Below, piece by piece: positions 8,222 through 36,896 of a DNA stretch of 64,000 nt; position 1 is the first letter of the stretch, and each line of letters begins with the position of its first letter. The DNA is from an uncultured Cohaesibacter sp. (GTDB lineage Bacteria; Pseudomonadota; Alphaproteobacteria; Rhizobiales; Cohaesibacteraceae): contig NZ_OY782507.1 in assembly GCF_963677725.1 (NCBI RefSeq), positions 4,322,171-4,386,170 on the forward strand, written 5' to 3'. The notes under the pieces were generated by a model, which saw nothing but the letters and a program-made list of their open reading frames with translations, was not told the DNA's origin and did no database searches. The position numbers and the translations under genes were made by a program.

Positions 8222-10000
8222 TTATTCTGCAGGAACCACAGCTTCGTTGACCGGCCGTTTGAGGGCGACCAGCAAAGCGGTGGTGATCAGCGTGCCAATG
8301 ACGATCGACAGGATATACATGGGCAGGTTGCTGACCGCGTTGGGGATCGCCAGAACGAAGGCGCCACCGTGAGGCGCGCGCAGGCCACAAGAGAAGAACA
8401 TCGACATAGCACCGGTGATGGCAGAGCCGATCATGATGGATGGGATAACCCGCAGCGGATCTTTCGCAGCATATGGAATGGCGCCCTCGGTGATGAAGGA
8501 GAGGCCGAGAACGGCTGCGGCTTTGCCTGCTTCACGTTCTTCTTCGGTGAAGCGGTTTTTGGCAACAAAGGTAGCCAGAGCCAGACCCAGAGGAGGGGTC
8601 ATGCCAGCGGCCATGACGGCTGCCATCGGCGCAAAGGTGTCGCTGGTCAGAAGGCCAACGGAGAAGGCATAGGCCGCTTTGTTGACCGGGCCACCCATAT
8701 CGAAGGCCATCATCGCACCCAGAACAAGGCCAAGCAACACGGCGTTGGTCTGGCCCATGCCCTGCAGCATGGCGGTCAAGCTTTCATTGATATAGCGAAC
8801 CGGCTCACCGATGACATAGACCATCAACAGGCCGACAATCGCGGTGGAGAGCAATGGCAGGATCAGGACCGGCATCAAGCCCTCAAGGGAGGATGGCAGC
8901 TTGATATTGTCGCGCAACCAGAGAGCGACATAACCGGCAAGAAAACCGGCCAGAATGCCGCCAAGGAAGCCTGCGCCCAGATTCACAGCCAAAAGACCAC
9001 CGATCAGGCCGGGGGTAAGGCCGGGACGGTCGGCGATGGAATAGGCGATAAAGCCCGCAAGAACCGGAACCATCAGCTTGAAGGCTGCGCCACCACCGAT
9101 GGCCATCAGGGCCGCGGCAAGGGTGCCTTCTTCTTTGAAGGCTTCGATGCCGAAAACGAAGGAAAGAGCAATCAGAAGACCACCGGCCACCACGACGGGC
9201 AGCATGTAGGAAACGCCGGTCAGCAGGTGTTTGTAAGGACCGCTGCGCTTGGCCTGAAGGGCGGCTTTGGCTTCGGCAACGGATTGCATGTTGCCTTCGT
9301 TTGTGGTGCTTGAAGGCACTGCGGTTTCAGCTTCCGCGAAGGCGGCTTTGATGACGGCGCTTGCATCCTTGACCGATGCCCCAACCGAGGTGCGATAGAT
9401 CGCCTTGCCAGCAAAGCGGCTTTCGTCCACATGGGTATCGGCGGAAATGATCACCAGATCAGCTGCCGCAATATCCTCGGCAGTCAGCTGGTCCTTGGCA
9501 CCGACGGAGCCTTGTGTCTCGACCTTGATGTCATAGCCTTCCGCGGCGCCCTTCTTTTTCAAGGCGTCTGCGGCCATGAAGGTGTGGGCAATGCCCGTTG
9601 GGCATGACGTCACGGCGACAATGCGCTTTTTGGATGATTCTGTCGTGGACACGGCTTCCTCCTGCTTCGAATCACGCGTGTTTGAGGCCGGAATTCCGGC
9701 ATCTTTCAAGGCGTCCGAGAGAATGTCTTCGGTCTTCCGGATCGCGTTGCTGGTTGTCGTAATGGTGGTTTTCAGGTCCGCGAAGCGGGTCTGATCAATG
9801 TCCTGGTCGATGGCGAGGATGGCGAGATCCGCGCTGTCGATTTCGTCCTGCAAAAGAGGTGCGGTGACCCCGTCGGGACCTTGACATTCTATGCTGATCG
9901 AATGGCCTTTATCCTCGGCGACCCTTCGCAAGGCCTCTGATGCCATTCGGGTGTGCGGCTCGCTTTCGCGATTGGCCGATACACCGACAATCTTTGCCAT
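8222..10000 (-). CDS. fruA: PTS fructose-specific EIIBC component
   Basis: Imports fructose and phosphorylates it to fructose 1-phosphate. From ATG 10000 the 592-residue protein has a degenerate N-terminal EIIB-like domain (about 1-95, no active Cys), then a functional EIIB with the phospho-Cys near residue 133 in TSCPTGIAHTF, and a C-terminal EIIC membrane domain from about 240 with several helices and the GGPVNKAAYAF segment. GGAG lies before ATG 10000; a 12-residue in-frame extension lacks a ribosome site and would run into the fruK intergene. Third gene of fruB-fruK-fruA. This is the classic proteobacterial arrangement with all PTS phosphocarriers supplied by FruB. Confidence 0.95.
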   Translation of the reverse strand: MAKIVGVSANRESEPHTRMASEALRRVAEDKGHSISIECQGPDGVTAPLLQDEIDSADLAILAIDQDIDQTRFADLKTTITTTSNAIRKTEDILSDALKDAGIPASNTRDSKQEEAVSTTESSKKRIVAVTSCPTGIAHTFMAADALKKKGAAEGYDIKVETQGSVGAKDQLTAEDIAAADLVIISADTHVDESRFAGKAIYRTSVGASVKDASAVIKAAFAEAETAVPSSTTNEGNMQSVAEAKAALQAKRSGPYKHLLTGVSYMLPVVVAGGLLIALSFVFGIEAFKEEGTLAAALMAIGGGAAFKLMVPVLAGFIAYSIADRPGLTPGLIGGLLAVNLGAGFLGGILAGFLAGYVALWLRDNIKLPSSLEGLMPVLILPLLSTAIVGLLMVYVIGEPVRYINESLTAMLQGMGQTNAVLLGLVLGAMMAFDMGGPVNKAAYAFSVGLLTSDTFAPMAAVMAAGMTPPLGLALATFVAKNRFTEEEREAGKAAAVLGLSFITEGAIPYAAKDPLRVIPSIMIGSAITGAMSMFFSCGLRAPHGGAFVLAIPNAVSNLPMYILSIVIGTLITTALLVALKRPVNEAVVPAE

Positions 10001-10016: not shown

Positions 10017-10970
10017 TCAAAAATCCAAAGGCTCAATGGTCACTTGCGTGGCGAAAGCCTCGATTGTGTCTCGCGGGGGCAGATGCGGTCCGATTTCGCC
10101 CAGTGCTCCCAGAGAAAATCCCGTAGCCAGACGACCAAGCGCTGCGAGGGACAGGCCCTTGGTGCGGGCATCGACAATGCCTGACACCATGGCGTCGCCT
10201 GCACCGACAGTGCTTTTGACGACGGCCTTTGGCGGTTGGGCCAGAAGCACCTCGTCTGCGGCGATGAAAATGGCCCCCTGTTCGCCCATGGAGACGGCGA
10301 TCAGCTCGACTTTGCCTGCGGCTACCGTACGGGCTGCCGCGACCACCTCTTGTGGCGAGGACAGGGGCTTGCCAACCAGTTCGGACAATTCGCTGATATT
10401 GGGTTTGATGATGTCCGGGCCTTCTTTCAGCGCTGCTGCAAAGGAGGGGCCACTGGCATCAAGCGCGACGTATTTGCCCTTTGCTTTCAGGCTTTTGGTC
10501 AGCTCGCCATAGATGGTGGCTGGTATGTCGGCGGGCAGGCTGCCTGCTAGAACGAATGTGTCGACACCCGCCTCACAGAGCGCATCGATGCGGGCGGTCA
10601 GCTCAACCAAGGCCTGCTGGCTGTTGGTAAGGCCGGGGGCATTGATGTCGGTGATTTCAAGCTTCACCCCATCGACGACCTTCATGTTGACCCTTGTCAG
10701 GCCGGGCAGACGGACAAAATGATCCGCGATGGCCTGACGGGTGAAGAGCTGTTCGAAGATCCCGGCATTGTCTGCACCCAGAATGCCAGTGGCGGCGACA
10801 TGATGGCCCATATGGGAGAGGAAGCTGGCGACATTGACGCCCTTGCCTCCGGCATCAAGCTGCTGCTCGGCAATCCGGTTGACGTCACCTGCGGTGAAGT
10901 CAGGGATCTGAACCGTCTGGTCAATTGCGGGATTAAGGGTGACGGTTGCAATGCGTGGATGGTTCGTCAT
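10017..10970 (-). CDS. fruK: 1-phosphofructokinase
   Basis: Converts fructose 1-phosphate to fructose 1,6-bisphosphate with ATP. The 317-residue protein is of the PfkB/ribokinase family, with the N-terminal motif TLNPAIDQTV, the GGKGVNVA substrate motif and the C-terminal catalytic VGAGDAMVSG anion-hole motif containing the base Asp. GGGAGG sits before ATG 10970. It lies 16 bp upstream of fruA and 22 bp downstream of fruB in the same operon, as expected for sequential handling of fructose. Confidence 0.95.
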   Translation of the reverse strand: MTNHPRIATVTLNPAIDQTVQIPDFTAGDVNRIAEQQLDAGGKGVNVASFLSHMGHHVAATGILGADNAGIFEQLFTRQAIADHFVRLPGLTRVNMKVVDGVKLEITDINAPGLTNSQQALVELTARIDALCEAGVDTFVLAGSLPADIPATIYGELTKSLKAKGKYVALDASGPSFAAALKEGPDIIKPNISELSELVGKPLSSPQEVVAAARTVAAGKVELIAVSMGEQGAIFIAADEVLLAQPPKAVVKSTVGAGDAMVSGIVDARTKGLSLAALGRLATGFSLGALGEIGPHLPPRDTIEAFATQVTIEPLDF

Positions 10971-10992
10971 GGTCTGATCCTCCCAACTTTCC

Positions 10993-26391: not shown

Positions 26392-26532
26392 CCTGAGCGG
26401 TTCTGATGGTCTGCGGAGTAGGGGATTACCCGAAGATATTGAACCACCGAGGCGATTGCCAGAAGAAGTTTCACGCAACGATCTTTATCAGGACAGACTG
26501 GGGTTTCTTCTAGAGAATTCGGGGCTTCATCA

Positions 26533-26563
26533 GGAAAGAAAAGAGGGGAGCGATGCTCCCCTC
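26533..26563 (-). terminator. Terminator of iolA
   Basis: A perfect 9-bp stem, GAGGGGAGC/GCTCCCCTC with a 3-nt loop, is followed on the minus strand by CTTTTCTTTCC. It lies 12 bp beyond the iolA stop and separates it from the RpiR gene. Confidence 0.85.
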
Positions 26564-26574
26564 AGATGGATTGA

Positions 26575-28089: not shown

Positions 28090-28278
28090 CCTAGGATCCT
28101 CCAGTCAGACAGCGACGCTGCCAAAAGCACTTGGATGCGGTTTGGGTGATCGGATCTGGCCTGGCTGAAAAGGAGCGCTATGCGCCTTCATGTCCCAGTC
28201 GCCAAGAGGTCCCCCCTTTCGCAACCTTCATCAGCGATAGGCGCGTGGGGGGCGAATGGAATTGAGAGAAATCAAAAA

Positions 28279-28324
28279 TGAAATATTTATTTCATAAATT
28301 AAATTGATCGGTGAATACATTTCA
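28279..28324. promoter_or_regulatory. Putative RpiR/IolR operators in the iolA-iolE divergent region
   Basis: The 419-bp spacer holds a perfect palindrome, TGAAAT-ATTT-ATTTCA (28279-28294), and 17 bp further a related site, TGAAT-ACA-TTTCA (28312-28324). TGAAA/TTTCA half-sites fit what I recall of RpiR-family operators. A possible -35 TTGACC (28332) points toward the DUF2090 gene, but no convincing -10 was found. Nothing else recognised in the spacer. Confidence 0.5.
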
Positions 28325-28508
28325 TTTTCACTTGACCCATCCTGTCTACAAGCATTTACTTACCTTGACTTTGTGCGCCCTCGCCGCGGCAATGGCCACC
28401 TTGAGGAGAATGAGCGATCCTGCGGTGTTGGCTGATTGAGGAGGGTGCACCAAACTGTTAGGGCTGTCGGCGAAAGGGCCGCCTCAGACCATTTGCAAAG
28501 GAACTGAC

Positions 28509-30349: not shown

Positions 30350-30420
30350 GTCTGCTTCACACTGAGAGCCTCTCACATTCCATGTGGACATCTTTCTTGA
30401 GTATATTTGGATGAAAAGCG

Positions 30421-30454
30421 AAACCCCGCTGTGTTGTTGCAGCGGGGTTTTTTG
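30421..30454 (+). terminator. Terminator after iolE
   Basis: An 11-bp perfect stem, AAACCCCGCTG/CAGCGGGGTTT with an 8-nt loop, is followed directly by a T-run. It lies 72 bp after the iolE stop. Confidence 0.93.
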
Positions 30455-30493
30455 TGTTTTGGCAGAAATATGGGCTTAAAATGCATCTATCAG

Positions 30494-30660
30494 TTTACGT
30501 CGCGTAACATTTGCCTAGCGAAAGGAATGAGCCTATGAATTCCCGTCATATCATTTGGGAATTCAATTCACTTCTTTCCGTGTGGGAAGCTGTGGTAACT
30601 CAGTGTCATGTCGCATCCGAGGGAGGGGTAGACGACATACCCATTTCCAGGAGTTACCCG
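30494..30660 (+). ncRNA. Candidate structured 5' leader of a small membrane protein
   Basis: Successive perfect inverted repeats fill this stretch: TTACG-tcg-CGTAA (30495-30507), GAATTCCC / GGGAATTC with a 12-nt loop (30537-30564), CTTTCC / GGGAAG with a GTGT loop (30574-30589, one wobble), and GGTAACTC (30594-30601) pairing with GAGTTACC (30651-30658), enclosing ATGTCG/CGACAT (30608-30638). The last long-range stem covers part of the AGGAG ribosome site that serves ATG 30661, so folding could block translation. No known riboswitch class recognised. Alternatively the stretch is coding from ATG 30535 (in frame, AGGA 8 bp upstream) and the repeats are chance. Confidence 0.5.
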
Positions 30661-30771
30661 ATGTTTCTTATCTTGAGTCTTGTCCTTGCTAGTCCGTTTA
30701 TGGCCGCTGTCTACTTCTATGTTGACGAACTGGCCTATGATGTTGGTCCCCTGCCAGAGATGGCTGCATGA
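30661..30771 (+). CDS. Small single-span membrane protein, 36 residues
   Basis: ATG 30661 has AGGAG seven bases upstream. The peptide opens MFLILSLVLASPFMAAVYFY, a single hydrophobic span, followed by a short acidic tail (VDELAYDVGPLPEM). The in-frame ATG 30535 with AAGGA would give a 79-residue protein with the same tail. It stands alone between two terminators and has its own terminator 13 bp downstream, so it forms a tiny transcription unit. Function unknown; small regulators of transporters or respiratory complexes often look like this, but no family is recognised. Confidence 0.55.
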   Translation: MFLILSLVLASPFMAAVYFYVDELAYDVGPLPEMAA

Positions 30772-30784
30772 TGGATAAATTTGC

Positions 30785-30820
30785 AAAAAGGGGCTCGTCC
30801 CGATGGACGGGCTCTTTTTG
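30785..30820. terminator. Terminator of the small-protein unit
   Basis: The stem AAAAAGGGGCTCGTCC / GGACGGGCTCTTTTT, with a CGAT loop and a few G-T pairs, is followed by T-rich sequence. It closes the short unit before the LysR gene, which starts 116 bp further on. Confidence 0.85.
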
Positions 30821-30936
30821 CGTTTTGGTTCGTGTTTTGTGGCCTCAGCCTCGTCTTTTAGGCCATTGATGCGGGGGAATGATTGCTCTATTCCTCGCGA
30901 GATTAGCGGTTTTGTCCTTATAGTCTGAATAGTCCT

Positions 30937-31851
30937 ATGGAACGCCTCAATCTCAATCAATTGCTGACCCTGCGGATCATGCTCGAAGAGCGGAATCTGT
31001 CGCGCGCGGCCGACAAGCTGTTTTTGACGCAATCGGCGATCAGCAAGCAGTTGAGCCAGTTGCGCAGCTATTTCAATGATCCGCTGTTGATCCGGGAAGG
31101 CAATGTCTATTGGCTGAGCGTTAAGGCGGAAACGCTGTTGCCAAAGCTGCAACGGATATTGTCCGATATCGATTCCCTGACTGAGACCAGCGAATTCCGA
31201 CCCCATGACTGTCGGCGCCAATTTCGGTTTGCCAGCACCGACTATGTGGCACAGTTCATCTTTCCTGCCATCGCAAAACGGCTGACCTATGAAGCGCCGC
31301 TTGTCGATGTTGCCTATGAAATGATGAAGCCTGAATGGATGGGGCAGCTTGGCAAGCTCCATCTGGATTTTGTCTGTTTGTCCAATCCAACCTTATCGGA
31401 GAATGTGCATTCGGTGCCATTGGGGGGCGATCGGTCCGTGTGTGTGATGGCGGATAATCATCCTCTGGCAGCGACCGACAGTCTCACACTTGATGGTTTG
31501 CTCGATTTTCCCTTTGTGTTGATCAATAGCGGCGGCGACAAAGACCGCTTCTTTGACGGGCTTCTAGAAGCGCAAAAGCTGAGCCGGCGGGTGGCGCTTG
31601 AAGTGCCATTTTTCTCTGCATCCTTTGAAATTGTCGCTGGCGGAGATTTCCTGTTGATCGTTTCCGAACATGTGGCGATCAAGGCGCAGCAACGCTATGC
31701 CGTGACCTATCGCCACTTGCCCATGCCCAGCCATAACAATTGCTATCAATTATGCTGGCATGCGATCCATCACAAGGATGAGGCTCATGCCTGGATGCGG
31801 AACCTGATCGCTGAGGAAATCAGCGGGGCCCTCGCTTCGCCTTACAATTGA
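30937..31851 (+). CDS. LysR family transcriptional regulator
   Basis: A 304-residue regulator with an N-terminal LysR helix-turn-helix (about 1-65; LNLNQLLTLRIMLEERNLSRAADKLFLTQSAISKQLSQLR) and a periplasmic-binding-type effector domain. The N-terminal motif and RREFRFASTDYVAQ-like middle resemble the NodD/SyrM-type subgroup. It converges on the hut-linked TRAP operon with a 58-bp gap and follows the small-protein unit. Target genes are unclear; LysR genes usually control a divergent neighbour, which here would be none. Confidence 0.88.
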   Translation: MERLNLNQLLTLRIMLEERNLSRAADKLFLTQSAISKQLSQLRSYFNDPLLIREGNVYWLSVKAETLLPKLQRILSDIDSLTETSEFRPHDCRRQFRFASTDYVAQFIFPAIAKRLTYEAPLVDVAYEMMKPEWMGQLGKLHLDFVCLSNPTLSENVHSVPLGGDRSVCVMADNHPLAATDSLTLDGLLDFPFVLINSGGDKDRFFDGLLEAQKLSRRVALEVPFFSASFEIVAGGDFLLIVSEHVAIKAQQRYAVTYRHLPMPSHNNCYQLCWHAIHHKDEAHAWMRNLIAEEISGALASPYN

Positions 31852-34057: not shown

Positions 34058-35143
34058 TCAATAGCCCATGATAGACGCGCGGGCGTTCATCTGGCCATTG
34101 TCGGCATAGGTCATATAACCACCAACGCTGTCGCGGTATGCGACGAAGCTTTCGGTGATGCGCTTGACCAGCTCGTCGTCATCCTGACGCAGTTCGTCGA
34201 TCACTTCACCCGCTGCCTTGCCCATAGCCTTTATGACGCTATCAGGGAACTTTTTGACCTGAACGCCTTCCTTCTCGACCATGTTTTTCAGAGCCACTGC
34301 ATGTTTGGTCGTATATTCGGTCCAGACCGGATTATAGAGGCTCTCGCAAGCAAGGCTGACGGCCTGTTTGAGATCGTCTGGCAGACCTGCATAGACGTCG
34401 GCATTGACGCCGCATTCTTCTGCCGAGGATGGCTCGCCAACGCCGGGCCAATAATAGTTTTTGGCCACCTGATAGAAGCCAAGGGCGCTGTCGGTCCATG
34501 GGCCGATAAACTCACCGGCATCAAGTGCCCCTGTCTGCAGGGCCTGGAACATGGCCGGGCCGGACATGGCTTCGGCGGCCATGCCGAGCTTGGAGGCCAT
34601 TTCGGAAGCGAGACCGGTGGTGCGGAATTTAAGGCCCTTGAGATCGTCCGGAGAGTTGATCTCGTTGCGGAACCAGCCACCCCATTGCGGGCCGGAGTTG
34701 CCACACAGGAACGGTTGGATCTTGAAGCGGCCATACATTTCGTCATAGAGCGCCTGACCGCCACCATGATAGAGCCAGCCGAACTGTTCGTCGGCACGCA
34801 GCCCGAAGGGTTGGGAGCCAAACAGCAGGATGCCCTTGGATTTGGAGCCCCAATAGGCAGGGACCGCATGATACAGCTCGGCGGTGCCTTCGCTGACGGC
34901 ATCAAAGACGCCTCGACCGGGGACCAGTTCGCCTGCGGCAAACAGTTTTACCTCGATGCGACCGCCGGACAGGGCGGTGATGCGATCAGCCAGCATTTGG
35001 GCAGCAACGCCGGGGCCGGGCAGGTTCTTTGGCCAAGCGGTGACCATTTTCCATTGCATCTTACCCTCGGCGATAGCCGGGGTGGCGAGGGCGCTGGCTG
35101 CGAGACCGGCAGCGCCGGTTTTCAAGAAGGTTCTTCTTTCCAT
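34058..35143 (-). CDS. TRAP substrate-binding protein with Tat signal (hut-linked, TakP/FcbT1-like)
   Basis: A 361-residue periplasmic receptor that starts at ATG 35143 (AGAGGAG upstream), since a much longer open frame has no ribosome site. The N-terminus ERRTFLKTGAAGLAASA is a twin-arginine signal. The mature protein follows the TakP pattern (MVTAWPKNLPGPG, then LKFRTTGLASEMASKLG with the ligand Arg, and a FIGPWTDSALGFYQVAKNYYW segment). It lies 79 bp behind hutU on the same strand, so histidine, urocanate or another imidazole acid is a reasonable ligand guess. TakP relatives bind 2-oxoacids, which is the main alternative. Confidence 0.9.
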   Translation of the reverse strand: MERRTFLKTGAAGLAASALATPAIAEGKMQWKMVTAWPKNLPGPGVAAQMLADRITALSGGRIEVKLFAAGELVPGRGVFDAVSEGTAELYHAVPAYWGSKSKGILLFGSQPFGLRADEQFGWLYHGGGQALYDEMYGRFKIQPFLCGNSGPQWGGWFRNEINSPDDLKGLKFRTTGLASEMASKLGMAAEAMSGPAMFQALQTGALDAGEFIGPWTDSALGFYQVAKNYYWPGVGEPSSAEECGVNADVYAGLPDDLKQAVSLACESLYNPVWTEYTTKHAVALKNMVEKEGVQVKKFPDSVIKAMGKAAGEVIDELRQDDDELVKRITESFVAYRDSVGGYMTYADNGQMNARASIMGY

Positions 35144-35222
35144 TTGATGTCTCCTCTGGGAAGGTGGATTGGACGGTGGGCGTTCCTTTGCCCTTATTCT
35201 TGTTATGTCTTTTGCTTTGCAT

Positions 35223-36896
35223 TCAGTTGCCGAGGATACCCGGCAGTCTAAGGCCATGATCGCGGGCGCAATCCAGCGCAATGTCATAGCCTGCATCCGC
35301 GTGACGCCAGACGCCGCTGGCAGGGTCATTCCACAGCACTCTTTCGAGCCGCTTGGCGGCGTCCTTGGTGCCGTCAGCGACAATCACCACGCCAGAATGC
35401 TGGGAGAAGCCCATGCCGACGCCGCCGCCATGATGGAGGCTGACCCATGTGGCACCGCTTGCGGTATTGACCAGTGCATTGAGCAACGGCCAGTCGGACA
35501 CAGCGTCCGAGCCATCGCGCATGGATTCGGTTTCGCGGTTGGGACTGGCGACCGAGCCGCTGTCGAGATGGTCACGGCCAATGACAATCGGGGCTTTTAA
35601 CTCGCCCGAGGCGACCATTTCGTTGAATTTGAGGCCCGCACGGTGACGATCTCCCAGACCGATCCAGCAAATGCGGGCGGGCAGGCCCTGAAAAGCGATG
35701 CGCTCGCTGGCCATATCGAGCCAATTGTGCAGATGTGTGTTGTCCGGGAACAGCTCTTTCATCGCCTGATCGGTCTTGCGGATGTCTTCGGGATCGCCGG
35801 AAAGCGCGCACCAGCGGAACGGTCCGATGCCCTTGCAGAAGAGCGGACGGATATAGGCTGGCACGAAGCCCGGGAAGGCGAAGGCATCCTCAAGGCCTTC
35901 TTCCAGCGCCATCTGACGGATATTGTTGCCATAATCGACGGTGGGGACGCCATCCTTGTGGAAGGCGACCATGGCTTCGACATGGACTTTCATCGAGGCA
36001 CGGGCGGCTTTCTCCACTTCCTTGGGCGCAGACTGGGCCTTTTCCTTCCACTGGGCAACAGTCCAGCCCTGTGGCAGATAGCCATTGACCGGGTCATGGG
36101 CGGAGGTCTGATCGGTGACGATGTCAGGGCGGATGCCACGGCGATGAATTTCGGGGAAGATGTCAGCGGCATTGCCAAGCAGACCGACGGATTTGGCAAC
36201 GCCCGCCTTGGTCCAGCGTTCGATCATGTCCAGCGCTTCATCAAGGCTGTCGGTTTTCTCGTCGAGATATTTGGTGCGCAGGCGGAAATCGAGACTGTCG
36301 GGATTGCATTCAACTGCCAGACAGCAGGCCCCGGCAAAGACGGCTGCGAGGGGTTGTGCGCCGCCCATGCCGCCAAGACCGCCGGTGAGGATCCATTTGC
36401 CCTTGAGATCGCCGTCATAATGCTGGCGACCGGCTTCGGCAAAGGTTTCATAGGTGCCCTGCACGATGCCTTGGGTGCCGATATAGATCCAGGACCCGGC
36501 GGTCATCTGGCCATACATCATCAGGCCCTTTTTATCGAGCTCGTTGAAATGGTCCCAGTTGGCCCAGTTGGGCACCAGATTGGAATTGGCGATGAGCACG
36601 CGCGGGGCGTCCTTGTGGGTGCGAACCACGGCGACGGGTTTGCCGGACTGAACCAACAGGGTTTCGTCTTCTTCCAGATCCTTGAGGGTCGCGACGATGC
36701 GGTCGAAATCCTGCCATGTGCGGGCCGCGCGACCGATGCCGCCATAGACGACCAGCTCATGCGGATTTTCGGCCACATCCGGGTGCAGATTGTTCATCAG
36801 CATCCGCATTGGTGCTTCGGTAAGCCAGCTTTTGGCAGTGATTTCGGTGCCGGTTGGCGGGAAAATATCACGGCTGTTTTTACGCGGGTCGGTCAT
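35223..36896 (-). CDS. hutU: Urocanate hydratase
   Basis: Adds water to urocanate, giving imidazolonepropionate, with tightly bound NAD as electrophile. The 557-residue length from ATG 36896 matches the family; an ATG 36908 would add four residues. NAD site [13 protein letters not shown], the family segment LYHAVPAYW is not here but [20 protein letters not shown] and the catalytic-Tyr/Cys region near [11 protein letters not shown] are conserved. GGAGG lies before ATG 36896, and the start overlaps the hutG stop (TGATG). Part of hutI-hutH-hutG-hutU-TRAP. Confidence 0.96.

Follow-up and report, generated by a model that had tools for sequence, protein, structure and literature searches.

Judged against one sister genome, the interval between the inositol-breakdown gene iolE (TIGR04379 match) and a LysR-family regulator gene holds a real unit, best read as an orphan gene of a known kind: one for a small membrane protein, with a leader that is subject to regulation. 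The same comparison lends no support to reading it as a riboswitch. Two features of the unit stand above chance. Base changes in the first 27 codons of the 36-residue frame are distributed as in a protein that strong purifying selection maintains, and the DNA between the predicted iolE terminator and the start codon has diverged less than fourfold sites have.

The window is the whole stretch of DNA that was analysed (64,000 nucleotides from an uncultured Cohaesibacter sp.). We refer to its source genome as G000 and to the same-genus relative used for pairwise comparison as G008. The gene order on one strand is iolE, a predicted terminator, the unit, a second predicted terminator and the LysR gene; beyond LysR, on the opposite strand, lies a TRAP transporter (dctM and TRAP_S1 matches). 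The features of the locus are as follows.

30420-30451, plus strand: predicted iolE terminator, the upstream isolator of the unit (14-pair stem and T-run; the G008 counterpart has 12 pairs)
30452-30489, plus strand: conserved block, presumed promoter (36/38 bases as in G008)
30495-30507, no strand assigned: dyad TTACGTCGCGTAA, candidate operator (intact and tandemly duplicated in G008)
30508-30660, plus strand: 5' leader (gap-free against G008 from 30508 to the ATG; core 30604-30634 most conserved)
30521-30537, plus strand: AAAGGA-N8-ATG, a ribosome-site-like sequence with an upstream ATG (kept in G008, its reading frame not)
30649-30653, plus strand: ribosome site AGGAG (TGGAG in G008; predicted mostly paired in both species)
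30661-30771, plus strand: 36-residue membrane peptide MFLILSLVLASPFMAAVYFYVDELAYDVGPLPEMAA and stop (codon pattern against G008; AlphaFold2 helix)
30786-30819, plus strand: predicted intrinsic terminator of the unit (15-pair stem and T-run; 13-pair stem after the G008 copy)
30937-31851, plus strand: LysR-family regulator, a candidate regulator of the dyad (Pfam HTH_1 and LysR_substrate; adjoins the unit in both genomes)

A first-pass annotation of this DNA had described a self-contained small-membrane-peptide unit, and the description holds: predicted terminators, ribosome site and peptide all recur in G008. It was also right in placing AGGAG seven bases ahead of ATG 30661, in closing the 36-codon frame with a TGA stop at 30769-30771, and in setting a terminator, here predicted and with a counterpart in G008, between the unit and iolE. 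The terminator that it put directly after the stop is likewise predicted, but begins 14 bases past it. The co-directional LysR gene starts 117 bases past this second terminator.

In the listed TRAP substrate-binding frame 34058-35383, residues 82-103 give a weak match to a TAT-like signal (TIGR01409, E 0.025, short of the cut-off), well past the listed start, and the true start of the frame may be an internal ATG.

Reading frame and peptide

The product of the unit is most likely the short 36-residue peptide, because of the codon pattern of its frame and because the upstream part of a longer, 79-codon frame appears unconstrained and carries stops in the relative. Over codons 1-27 of the short frame, 12 of the 13 base differences from G008 fall in third positions (binomial P 1.7e-5 for 12/13 or more) and one amino acid is changed, giving a dN of 0.016 and a dS of 1.84, the latter from only 17.5 synonymous sites. 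The longer frame had been raised as a caveat in the annotation, and it does exist, opening at ATG 30535 behind an AAAGGA ribosome site and running for 78 residues plus stop. We rejected it as the product, however, as its 42 codons upstream of ATG 30661 show no coding constraint (dN 0.228, dS 0.192), with 11, 7, and 6 changes at codon positions 1, 2, and 3. The G008 counterpart of this part holds two stops, and there the frame from the upstream ATG closes after 15 codons. A coding history of the 42-codon stretch is unlikely in either lineage. Protein-level conservation over 30535-30660, named beforehand as the outcome that would make the repeats in the leader chance features of an ordinary gene, is not seen against G008. 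The case shows that a single sister genome can set a genuine short frame apart from a longer decoy and from stems that lack support.

When 74 small frames were compared with G008, three exceeded the 36-residue frame in third-position share (the three are among the best 12 of the frames with at least 8 changes). Both this control and the intergenic one below are poor, since the gene list is incomplete; nothing is ranked by them, and the comparisons relied on are those with fourfold sites and adjacent flanks. The three exceeding frames, short plus-strand frames in 8955-9533, have third-position changes only against G008 (0,0,8; 0,0,17; 0,0,15); the stretch is well conserved, and they are probably shadows of a gene missing from the gene list.

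The peptide starts with a Leu/Ile/Val-rich segment, and residues 1-19 have a Kyte-Doolittle mean of 2.17. An AlphaFold2 model built from two sequences predicts one long helix over residues 2-28 (mean pLDDT 82.7), in agreement with the single span proposed at first pass. The C-terminal end of the helix is acidic in G000, where the peptide has no K/R and four D/E; the G008 copy has three K/R and four D/E. The C-terminus is not conserved, and the two peptides end at 36 (G000) and 48 (G008) residues. The peptide falls in no Pfam family (its best match, at E 0.1, misses the cut-off) and no NCBIfam family, and it has no relative in the PDB (best E 1.1, cytochrome b559 alpha). According to PMC7667032, frames as short as this are usually left out of annotation.

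Leader, dyad, and promoter search

From 30452 to 30660, 178 of 209 bases are identical to G008, compared with 2558 of 3926 fourfold sites (binomial P 7e-11, with sites treated as independent). The fourfold reference was taken from 19 listed genes of the collinear block; only aligned positions were counted, which excludes a 21-base insertion in G008. The flanks match at 38/66 bases in the iolE 3' region and at 81/116 downstream of the second terminator. Within the region itself, the presumed promoter block stands out against fourfold sites (P 1.9e-5), and the counts are 17/18 for 30490-30507 (dyad included), 102/126 for 30535-30660, and 29/31 for the leader core. The core includes a G-rich stretch, and a C-rich small RNA could bind it by base pairing.

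Regulatory DNA is often conserved to this extent, and the leader is not the only such stretch in the window. Among six other stretches between listed genes (from the incomplete gene list), two are conserved at about 83% or more, with 344/416 bases identical at 28090-28508 and 61/67 aligned bases identical at 26479-26574, where 29 bases are deleted. A third, at 10513-10992 (389/478), seems partly coding, and the remaining three are less conserved (57/78, 105/163, and 244/325).

The dyad is 13 bp long (TTACG/CGTAA) and invariant. G008 carries it twice, in tandem (L002 1734-1770, minus strand), with a period of 21 bp, or about two helical turns, and the copy number of the candidate operator thus differs between the species. 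An enclosing 16-mer occurs once in G000 and twice in G008, always at the unit locus; elsewhere, allowing up to 3 mismatches, only 3-mismatch sites were found, three in G000 and five in G008. As this first repeat never varies, it offers no evidence for RNA pairing, and in sequence it resembles an operator in DNA more than a stem in RNA. LysR binding sites follow the rule T-N11-A. The dyad TTACGTCGCGTAA fits the rule by inspection, and the adjacent LysR protein would for this reason be the first candidate to bind it; such dyads are not uncommon in random sequence, with 0.41 expected per shuffled window at one mismatch and at least one in 38 of 100 shuffles. The LysR gene itself has no relative at E ≤1e-50 beyond G000 and G008 in 397 order genomes (with the best 5 candidates scored in each genome). 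In the plasmid collection, its seven top-scoring relatives come from Aeromonas and Vibrio (36-42% identity), and the gene was possibly acquired from outside the order.

No sigma-70-like promoter scoring at least 9/12 was found in the window region or the G008 region, and the one sigma-54-like match lies in G008, on its minus strand, with none in the window. When patterns of at least 7/12 kept in both species were sought instead (best 8 per strand), the plus-strand matches had their starts at 30644-30689, within the coding part or at its edge. Minus-strand patterns in the leader reach 7/12 in the window and 8/12 in G008, by a consensus that may not be the host's (again best 8 per strand). Because the promoter types tested match poorly, the transcription start is one that we infer.

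Distribution across genomes

As far as sequence searches reach, the unit is narrowly distributed within the genomes searched. A DNA search recovered it in two of 61 genomes of the same genus, family, and order, namely G000 and G008. With the 78-residue protein as query, 20 of the 61 matched at E up to 10; E was at most 7.5e-27 for G000 and G008 and at least 0.012 for the remaining 18, whose matches we take as chance. A two-peptide profile found G000 and G008 again, and these only, among 397 genomes of the order. The class sample gave 1/385, the unit's own genome (G008 is not among the matches listed), and the phylum sample 19/398 at E up to 0.05, all but the own genome at 0.0047 or worse and taken as chance. 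The order, class, and phylum samples overlap.

A pattern scan of GTDB r220, covering close relatives only, returned 37 stretches and one confirmed locus, a 13-residue match at a contig end that we take as chance. In viral contigs, 55 stretches matched the pattern and none was confirmed. Plasmids held no match to the unit. An iolE match occurs in 20 plasmid records, and three of these neighbourhoods (two Rhizobium, one Paracoccus) were examined; the genes annotated next to iolE there are others, and peptide matches reach E 0.37 at best. The leader, searched at E up to 10, matches 15 of 18 genus genomes, but outside the locus all matches are short, with E 0.256 or worse. A limited search of an open-licence library turned up no publication on this unit.

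The neighbouring genes were searched in the same 18 genomes. LysR is present at E up to 1e-40 in two (G000 and G008) and iolE in nine, of which the seven besides G000 and G008 are only 37-41% identical. Within the genus, this LysR and this type of iolE are thus confined to the two genomes that carry the unit. G000 and G008 are collinear over window positions 8628-38298, in three aligned pieces of 83-88% identity. Because of this collinearity, the unit appears to have been inherited within a larger block, and because the surrounding block is collinear anyway, the neighbourhood says little about a regulator or a partner. All evolutionary comparisons here are pairwise, with the one relative found. 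The unit adds to the inositol-catabolism neighbourhood a small membrane protein under clear selection, with no relative found outside one genus.

Possible function and leader structure

The reading that we favour, and hold tentatively, is an orphan, separately transcribed, operator-controlled small membrane protein with a repressive leader, which probably tunes a membrane partner. For its promoter, operator function, translational repression, membrane insertion, and partner we infer the following steps. A promoter in 30452-30489 would drive an RNA of about 0.3 kb, and a dimeric DNA-binding protein would act on the dyad at 30495-30507. The leader would pair with the ribosome site and the peptide would be made sparingly, its helix sitting in the inner membrane and modulating a membrane protein. 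The nearby TRAP transporter would be the first candidate partner; the proposed links of both LysR and the TRAP transporter to the unit rest on proximity.

By analogy, a modulator of membrane proteins is the best-supported function class for the peptide. A whole class of small membrane proteins is established as modulators of transporters (PMC10710835). Inner-membrane modulators like MgtS and AcrZ resemble the peptide in having fewer than 50 residues, one hydrophobic helix, and separate expression (the last presumed here); they differ in that no sequence relationship appeared in searches of the Pfam, NCBIfam, and PDB databases.

The strongest rival by analogy is that the peptide is a type I toxin like TisB, ShoB, and ZorO, small, hydrophobic, and kept off by an antisense RNA together with a repressor at the dyad; we consider it unlikely. 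It leads the alternatives because the layout of the tisB mRNA is similar, with a structurally sequestered ribosome site and a standby site about 100 nt upstream, as described in PMC7708055. On this reading the mRNA would have a long leader in which the ribosome site is concealed, and a standby site or upstream start would lie far ahead of it. The unit shares with tisB-istR1, shoB-ohsC, and zor-orz a small hydrophobic peptide, a long leader (about 150 nt), an upstream ribosome-site-like sequence, a real ribosome site predicted to be paired (in both species, though through different helices), and a palindromic element near the unit start that is a candidate operator; it also has its own terminator. 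The narrow distribution fits such a toxin, and a target of antisense pairing could well look like this leader, with its core conserved and its stems not. The antisense RNA, however, is only hypothetical here, and the minus-strand patterns in the leader (best 7/12 in the window, 8/12 in G008) include no convincing conserved antisense promoter, although a missing consensus match is weak evidence. The charges of the peptide also argue against the toxin. TisB bears lysine, whereas the G000 peptide is acidic and free of K/R; the G008 copy has three K/R to four D/E.

A leader-peptide attenuator of LysR, with formation of the terminator at 30786-30819 dependent on whether the peptide is translated, is possible by position only, and we think it very unlikely. 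Attenuators of amino-acid biosynthesis likewise have a short leader-peptide frame and then a terminator ahead of a co-directional gene, and the Leu/Ile/Val-rich start of the peptide would fit. A leader peptide is expected to keep mainly its control codons, though, whereas selection here appears to hold almost every one of residues 1-27, the non-repetitive YFYVDELAYD end among them, and thus the whole peptide core. In the one minimum-free-energy fold inspected, 30661-30830 simply forms the terminator.

Equally improbable is a dual-function RNA, a transcript of about 0.3 kb that would also act as a base-pairing small RNA through its core: the monocistronic layout with its own terminator and a core that is highly conserved, yet loses one of the six pairs of the inner stem across it, point that way, but no second copy of the leader better than E 0.25 was found in the 18 genus genomes, no target is known, and with the core just upstream of the ribosome site, translational control is a simpler reason for its conservation.

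The first-pass annotation had itself proposed a riboswitch or structured translational switch, based on four perfect inverted repeats. All of these exist, though the one at 30574-30589 contains a G-U pair and is imperfect as DNA; the others are the dyad, 30536-30544 with 30557-30565, and 30594-30601 with 30651-30658, enclosing 30608-30613 with 30633-30638. In favour of such a switch are the conserved leader sequence, a ribosome site predicted to be mostly paired, and a window leader that folds somewhat better than shuffled sequence (30508-30660, z -2.35, 4/200 shuffles at least as good). Against it, the 33 pairs of the proposed helices include 27 that are standard in G008, six that are broken, and none that is compensated (5/5, 6/8, 5/6, 6/8, and 5/6 kept, helix by helix), in a covariation test for which two sequences are little. 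An RNAalifold consensus has one compensated pair out of 61, located inside the coding part. Rfam covariance models gave no family at its threshold in the unit; in the whole window, only four tRNAs reached gathering scores, all elsewhere, and 15 sub-threshold matches around the unit are taken as chance. We regard a riboswitch as having only a slim chance of being right. For 30510-30690, the fold energy gave z -1.32 (17/200 shuffles at least as good), and for the G008 leader z -1.23 (27/200). The leader folds moderately better than shuffles, and the stems by themselves are unremarkable.

A weaker version of the proposal stands, as a prediction only: in each species most of the ribosome site is expected to be paired, although not by the same helix. 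In G000, 30651-30657 is predicted to pair with 30595-30601, and in G008, 30650-30656 with 30568-30574. Both predicted partner segments are nearly unchanged between the two genomes. This would fit a small membrane gene, restricted to its lineage, that is regulated at two levels, by an operator of species-varying copy number and by a two-partner leader, a reading to which we give little credence. We are just as doubtful of its leader component, in which the conserved anti-ribosome-site segments 30568-30574 and 30594-30601 would compete, one being used in each species. If true, the leader would be a two-partner translational switch kept by exchange of partners rather than by covariation, and either it or a type I toxin role would provide a new alphaproteobacterial model.

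At 30521-30537, G008 keeps both the ribosome-site-like sequence and the ATG, though not the frame that they open; they may serve as a standby site or as an upstream start with a regulatory role.
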